A stretch of DNA of 64,000 nt from positions 124,001-188,000 of IMG/VR virus record IMGVR_UViG_3300029893_000001. One strand, written 5' to 3'. The notes below the pieces were generated by a model. It was not told the DNA's origin, searched no databases, and worked only from the letters and a program-made list of their open reading frames with translations. Below are positions 4,565 to 4,660 of the stretch, in pieces (the first letter of the stretch is position 1; each line of letters starts with the position of its first letter). The DNA comes from a virus. The position numbers and the translations under genes were made by a program.

Positions 4565-4660
4565 CCGAAGTAGCGCTGCCTCTTCCAGTTGGGCTACCTC
4601 CCCATACTCAGCGGGGAAGGAAGGATTCGAACCTCCACTGTAGCGTCTTCAGATCAGTTT
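4565..4660 (-). tRNA. Permuted tRNA-like gene A
   Basis: Minus-strand order: TCTGAAG-A-CGCT, ACAGT, T-arm GGAGG-TTCGAAT-CCTTC (4620-4636), 3' acceptor CTTCCCC (4613-4619), 9-base linker, 5' acceptor GGGGAGG (4597-4603), TA, D-arm GCCCAACTGGAAGAGGC (4578-4594), AGCG-CTA-CTTCGGA. The acceptor pairs over 7 bp with one G-U. AGCG/CGCT and CTTCGGA/TCTGAAG extend the anticodon helix but are out of standard register. An alternative reading joins the 5' half of A to the 3' half of B as one tRNA with an insert of about 75 bases; its acceptor has two G-U pairs. Confidence 0.4.

Follow-up and report, generated by a model that had tools for sequence, protein, structure and literature searches.

The window, by which we mean the whole 64-kb stretch of DNA that was analysed, covers positions 124001-188000 of a 392-kb virus record. 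Two permuted tRNA-like units, A and B, stand there in tandem immediately downstream of a gene for a DUF7873 protein, and from promoter-like motif to terminator they are one RNA locus. Its features are listed below in the direction of reading; R3 is the covariance model described in the next section.

4779-5519, minus strand: gene for a 246-aa DUF7873 protein, directly before the RNA (Pfam PF25283, E 8e-101)
4734-4751, minus strand: promoter-like motif GAACCCTGTCGATAGTAG, between the DUF7873 gene and the RNA
4542-4672, minus strand: unit A, a stem and a permuted tRNA-like module, which holds the element first observed (R3 match 48.7 bits, E 9e-10)
4636-4620, minus strand: T-arm of unit A, GGAGG-TTCGAAT-CCTTC (permuted-tRNA scan and stem-pairing analysis)
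4619-4613, minus strand: 3' acceptor strand of unit A, CTTCCCC
4612-4604, minus strand: linker of unit A, 9 nt, GCTGAGTAT
4603-4597, minus strand: 5' acceptor strand of unit A, GGGGAGG
4594-4578, minus strand: D-arm of unit A, GCC-CAACTGGAAGA-GGC
4327-4516, minus strand: unit B, stem H1/H2 with an internal loop and a permuted tRNA-like module (R3 match 85.6 bits, E 2e-19)
4501-4508, minus strand: 5' side of the internal loop of unit B (AAUCGA in the family consensus; family alignment)
4461-4477, minus strand: T-arm of unit B (permuted-tRNA scan and stem-pairing analysis)
4454-4460 with 4391-4397, minus strand: acceptor of unit B
4398-4453, minus strand: linker of unit B, 56 nt, folding as a 15-bp hairpin (fold z -4.8)
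4374-4388, minus strand: D-arm of unit B (stem-pairing analysis)
4340-4346, minus strand: 3' side of the internal loop of unit B, UUAAACG (most positions more than 93% conserved in the family)
4246-4284, minus strand: hairpin and T-run resembling an intrinsic terminator (position and sequence conserved in contig G002)

A preliminary description of this DNA had read a T-arm, a 3' acceptor, a nine-base linker, a 5' acceptor and a D-arm in succession at 4565-4660. That order is exact, on the minus strand, and shuffled sequence gives nothing comparable: unit A scored 41.6 in the permuted-tRNA scan, and when the 64-kb window was shuffled 60 times (Markov) and both strands were scanned, no score reached 36. 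The limits given there do contain the elements, but the folded unit A is wider, at about 4672-4542, and includes a stem of its own. The neighbouring "second" reversed unit (4477-4374) is also real. The acceptor of unit A forms 7 of 7 pairs, one of them G-U, with covariation across 58 family members. Unit A was called neither by ARAGORN nor by the Rfam tRNA model, because both expect the arms in normal order. At a permissive E-value, Rfam matched in the window only a tRNA (1901-1973), a YrlA RNA (2725-2876) and, by chance, plant and miRNA families. A non-coding stretch at 1060-1640 on the minus strand, which holds an rRNA-like phrase (AACGGCCCTAAGACAGCGATG), had no Rfam match.

The promoter-like motif (GAACCCTGTNNATANTAG) occurs at seven sites in the window with at most two mismatches, against 0.05 expected, and all are on the minus strand (2916, 4734, 13100, 15519, 20937, 57009 and 60103).

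The orthologous pair and the RNA family beside DUF7873

An orthologous A-B pair was found in contig G002, where synteny is kept, with the same gene upstream and a DHH phosphoesterase gene downstream. The promoter-like motif and the terminator are kept as well, and the same motif precedes the Y RNA array of that contig. From the 5' acceptor strand of unit A to its D-arm (4603-4578), 26 of 26 bases are the same in the orthologue (locus L026). In unit B, 15 of the 48 pairs are changed on both sides between the window and G002 and one pair is broken, and the linker hairpin is entirely different in sequence but keeps its pairing. A resemblance of the window's B stem to a Ro site (TCGAATTCTCGTG) was judged to be due to chance, since it is missing from the orthologue. 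Searches of viral and genome collections with short exact patterns taken from the D-arm and from stem B recovered G002 and otherwise nothing but ordinary tRNAs or coding sequence, and a nucleotide search of phage records with the locus gave no match.

The DUF7873 gene is present in a single copy in this phage genome. Its AlphaFold2 model has a mean pLDDT of 93, and comparison of the fold with the PDB gave no clear relative (Foldseek best E 0.008 with TM below 0.2; VIA-align best Z 6.9). Used alone as the query, the 246-aa protein had no matches among viral contigs; one pattern scan found DUF7873 in 311 IMG/VR contigs, and phage records and an alignment query yielded many relatives. Deinobacterium chartae, a bacterium whose genome served as a control, probably has a DUF7873 protein too. 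We sampled 80 IMG/VR loci, 75 of which had at least 500 nt downstream of the gene. A module lay within 900 nt downstream on the same strand in 69 of these 75 (two modules in 54, one in 15), and none of the 80 had a module upstream or antisense. A-B pairs follow DUF7873 in actinobacterial, cyanobacterial, Klebsiella and metagenomic phages. Isolates with one or two modules after the gene include phages of Arthrobacter, Gordonia, Rhodococcus, Pseudanabaena, Klebsiella, Rhizobium and Vibrio, those of Rhizobium and Vibrio having a single module. No clear module was seen at a few DUF7873 loci (L068, L069 and that of a Microcoleus phage).

A model built from only two B units, those of the window and G002 (R2), matched the B units of two isolates, Arthrobacter phage Racecar at E 1e-12 and Gordonia phage Phendrix at E 2e-7, and in both the unit lies immediately 3' of DUF7873. 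The larger covariance model R3 was trained on 22 B units, leaving out those of the window and G002, and gave at least 54 bits in 38 of 44 IMG/VR loci outside the training set. DUF7873-linked B units mostly score 54-115 bits with R3, the Y RNAs of this phage 40-50 and tandem ordinary tRNAs 20-36, and weak R3 matches are therefore not to be counted as members. At gathering score, Rfam found only tRNA, tRNA-Sec and tmRNA in 14 DUF7873 loci and did not match the RNA itself.

Stems, heads and the conserved loop

An alignment of 58 non-redundant A-B sequences, with an effective number of 53, shows covariation in the acceptor and the T-arm of each unit, in the D-arm of A, and in H1 and H2, two 8-bp helices that enclose head B. 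The internal loop between H1 and H2 reads AAUCGA on its 5' side (T in 57, C in 56 and A in 58 of the 58 sequences) and UUAAAYG on its 3' side, where UUAAA is conserved to at least 93% and most positions exceed 93%. When pairing was compared with that of shuffled partners, the region upstream of A paired with the middle region (stem A, z -13) and the middle region with that downstream of B (stem B, z -24), while cross-unit pairings reached z of only -1.7 and -1.8. At the level of sequence comparison, this shows a separate covarying stem under each head. Upstream of head A, the DUF7873 loci also show YUNAR repeats, spaced strictly every 6 nt (3.45 versus 1.18 expected), which may serve in the formation of stem A or in protein binding.

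The heads resemble tRNA, with acceptor, D, T and anticodon stems all present at near-canonical spacing. The equivalent of the anticodon stem is perfect in 45% of A and 68% of B units, versus 6% and 9.5% after shuffling. The linker starts like the end of a tRNA: position 73 is A in 48 of 62 A units, and position 74 is C in 48 of 62 A units and 54 of 62 B units. The full NCCA is often present but is not universal, since the linker of unit A in the window begins with GCTG. An anticodon loop of 7 nt that has U33 and an anticodon was not found; among units whose stem is in canonical register, T occupies position 33 in only 3 of 23 (A) and 10 of 28 (B). Sequence comparison and covariation establish for this family the heads, a single stem in each unit, the loop of stem B and the close association with DUF7873.

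Comparison with Y RNAs, tRNA genes and tmRNA

The preliminary description had supposed that the phage uses the reversed layout repeatedly, and indeed the permuted order recurs on the minus strand of the genome. Most of the other permuted units have a stem containing GNCGAAUGC...GACUACA ... CCUGUCGNC, which covaries (26 of 31 pairs are changed on both sides), and their Rfam YrlA scores reach 61.7 bits. These units are bacterial Y RNAs. A model of 11 Y RNA units from three related phage contigs (R1) finds ten Y RNAs in the genome; the window holds two, both on the minus strand. The one at 2876-2728 has an enlarged tRNA-like module, and that at 2430-2367 consists of the Ro-binding stem without a tRNA-like head. 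In contig G002 there are five Y RNAs of the canonical kind (L026:606-1154 and 7112-7235, minus strand), of which four form an array; one of the five lacks the D-arm and another has no tRNA-like module at all.

The phage also encodes a Ro60/Rsr protein of 558 aa with TROVE and Ro60 vWA domains, whose best PDB match is Deinococcus radiodurans Rsr (E 3e-21). Its full-length gene lies beyond the window (G000:95509-97185, minus strand; L002:7509-9185), with Y RNAs directly upstream at 97220-98012. The closest phage relative of the protein is that of Myxococcus phage Mx1 (51%), and relatives are encoded in 362 phage records. YrlA and Ro have already been described in phages (PMC7765460, PMC12282133), and the permuted tRNA-like module of YrlA, its Rsr-binding stem and its tether to PNPase have been reviewed (PMC8394870).

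Units A and B share with YrlA (RF02553, which acts with Rsr/Ro60 and PNPase in RYPER) the general plan of a stem with a conserved internal loop under a permuted module, and the order of that module, i.e. T-arm, acceptor, closing loop, acceptor, D-arm. They differ from it in having two modules in tandem, a near-invariant AAUCGA/UUAAAYG loop in place of AAUGC/UUCCUGU, linkage to DUF7873 rather than Ro, and an NCCA-like linker start. The two units could be Y RNAs that have diverged but still bind the Ro60/Rsr encoded by the phage itself. The common architecture, the complete Rsr and roughly ten Y RNAs in the same phage, and the R3 scores of those Y RNAs speak for this, but we find it unlikely. 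R1 covers only the tRNA-like head of window unit A (model positions 43-111) and only the T-arm of unit B (positions 45-61), the stem loop is replaced, and a motif scan of 4340-4680 finds no Ro site of the AAUGC/UUCCUGU type. The Rfam YrlA score at A is 16.2 bits, below the gathering score of 69, which the canonical Y RNAs of the phage do not reach either. Ro60/Rsr does co-occur with the pair in this phage, but a TROVE protein was found in only 1 of 10 isolates carrying the DUF7873-linked RNA, and so this RNA does not appear to depend on Ro.

It is also quite improbable that A and B are true permuted tRNA genes, from which working tRNAs would arise by splicing and ligation at the anticodon loop and removal of the linker, as in red algae. 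With the permuted tRNA genes of red algae and archaea they share the 3' half placed before the 5' half and a linker between the acceptor ends, and both the four well-spaced tRNA stems and the N73-C74 start after the 3' acceptor strand fit such genes. However, position 33 varies here. Where a bulge-helix-bulge splice motif would be expected, none was seen, and the ends run on into long stems that covary and hold a conserved loop. ARAGORN calls the assembled halves no better than assembled YrlA units, and the anticodons shift. Assembly of the halves into a tRNA was rejected as evidence, being non-discriminating since Y RNAs pass as well. Spliced permuted tRNAs are thus probably not produced. The earlier proposal of tandem permuted genes under one promoter keeps its layout and its two units behind the promoter-like motif at 4751-4734, but not its tRNA genes.

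The two-piece, permuted tmRNA shares a permuted acceptor with a CCA-like end. In contrast to it, the DUF7873-linked RNA has a full D-arm and an equivalent of the anticodon stem, and no tag frame was identified. The G3-U70 pair of an alanine acceptor is replaced by G3-C70 in A and A3-U70 in B, and neither Rfam nor ARAGORN gave a tmRNA match at the locus. This phage has a one-piece tmRNA gene at 6644-7041 of the window (minus strand, tag ANNVVSLFGNVVANDNGTAEPLPLAA), and a tmRNA match in Gordonia phage Phendrix (L041:10063-10591) falls in a stretch not annotated as tmRNA.

The modules always lie downstream of DUF7873 on the same strand, as would be expected if they formed a cis-acting 3' element of its mRNA, acting in stability, processing or autoregulation, and no separate RNA. 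We regard this as very unlikely, because a promoter-like motif stands between the gene and the RNA and a terminator follows the RNA.

A single ordinary tRNA at 4603-4454 with a 75-base insert, which the preliminary description had offered as another folding, is practically out of the question: the 5' acceptor strand of A can pair with the 3' acceptor strand of B in the window with two G-U pairs, but this pairing is mismatched in G002, where A with A and B with B are perfect, and comparison of the two foldings finds stems that pair only within units.

A proposed ribonucleoprotein and its implications

We favour a new tandem Y-RNA-like tRNA mimic, probably bound by DUF7873, and consider this reading, with the mechanism that follows and a function that is inferred, to be reasonably likely. 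By analogy with YrlA, the locus would give a separate and stable transcript that works in a YrlA-like manner. This noncoding RNA of about 470 nt would consist of two lollipop units in tandem, each a stem bearing a circularly permuted tRNA-like head with a T-arm, a linker-joined acceptor, a D-arm and an equivalent of the anticodon stem. The stem, chiefly through its AAUCGA/UUAAAYG loop, would be gripped by a dedicated protein. Judged from gene neighbourhood, DUF7873, encoded by the adjacent gene, is the most likely candidate for this protein. Since the YrlA stem binds Rsr and its head binds PNPase (PMC8394870), a similar division between a DUF7873-bound stem and partner-binding heads may be supposed.

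The heads would offer tRNA features to a partner that reads tRNA. Candidates are RNase P, tRNA-modifying enzymes, PNPase (as in RYPER) and an anticodon nuclease of host defence; competition of the YrlA head with an anticodon nuclease has been suggested for Salmonella (PMC7790460). The particle would then tether or decoy the head partner during infection. Because N73-C74, often as NCCA, follows the 3' acceptor strand, RNase P could open the linker, and this suggests that the linkers are cleavable to give a tRNA-like CCA end. To the fuller picture of a widespread phage ribonucleoprotein, in which DUF7873 joins a two-headed tRNA mimic whose heads, perhaps opened by RNase P to CCA ends, capture a host tRNA-handling enzyme or blunt tRNA-cleaving defences, we give about even chances.

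The head and the general plan are already known from YrlA. In the databases and papers searched, the tandem layout, the different conserved loop, the linkage to DUF7873 and the CCA-like start of the linker are new. In a search confined largely to open-access journal papers, neither DUF7873 nor phage RNAs of this kind were found to have been described. The A-B RNA adjoins the gene of the same unknown protein in dozens of unrelated phages, and what it forms is likely not a tRNA but a new RNA-protein machine. It has been overlooked by annotation pipelines because tRNA finders are blind to permuted layouts. If this reading is correct, the plan of Y RNAs, in which a protein-binding stem carries a permuted tRNA mimic, would not be tied to Ro60, and the orphan protein family DUF7873 would gain a lead to its function.
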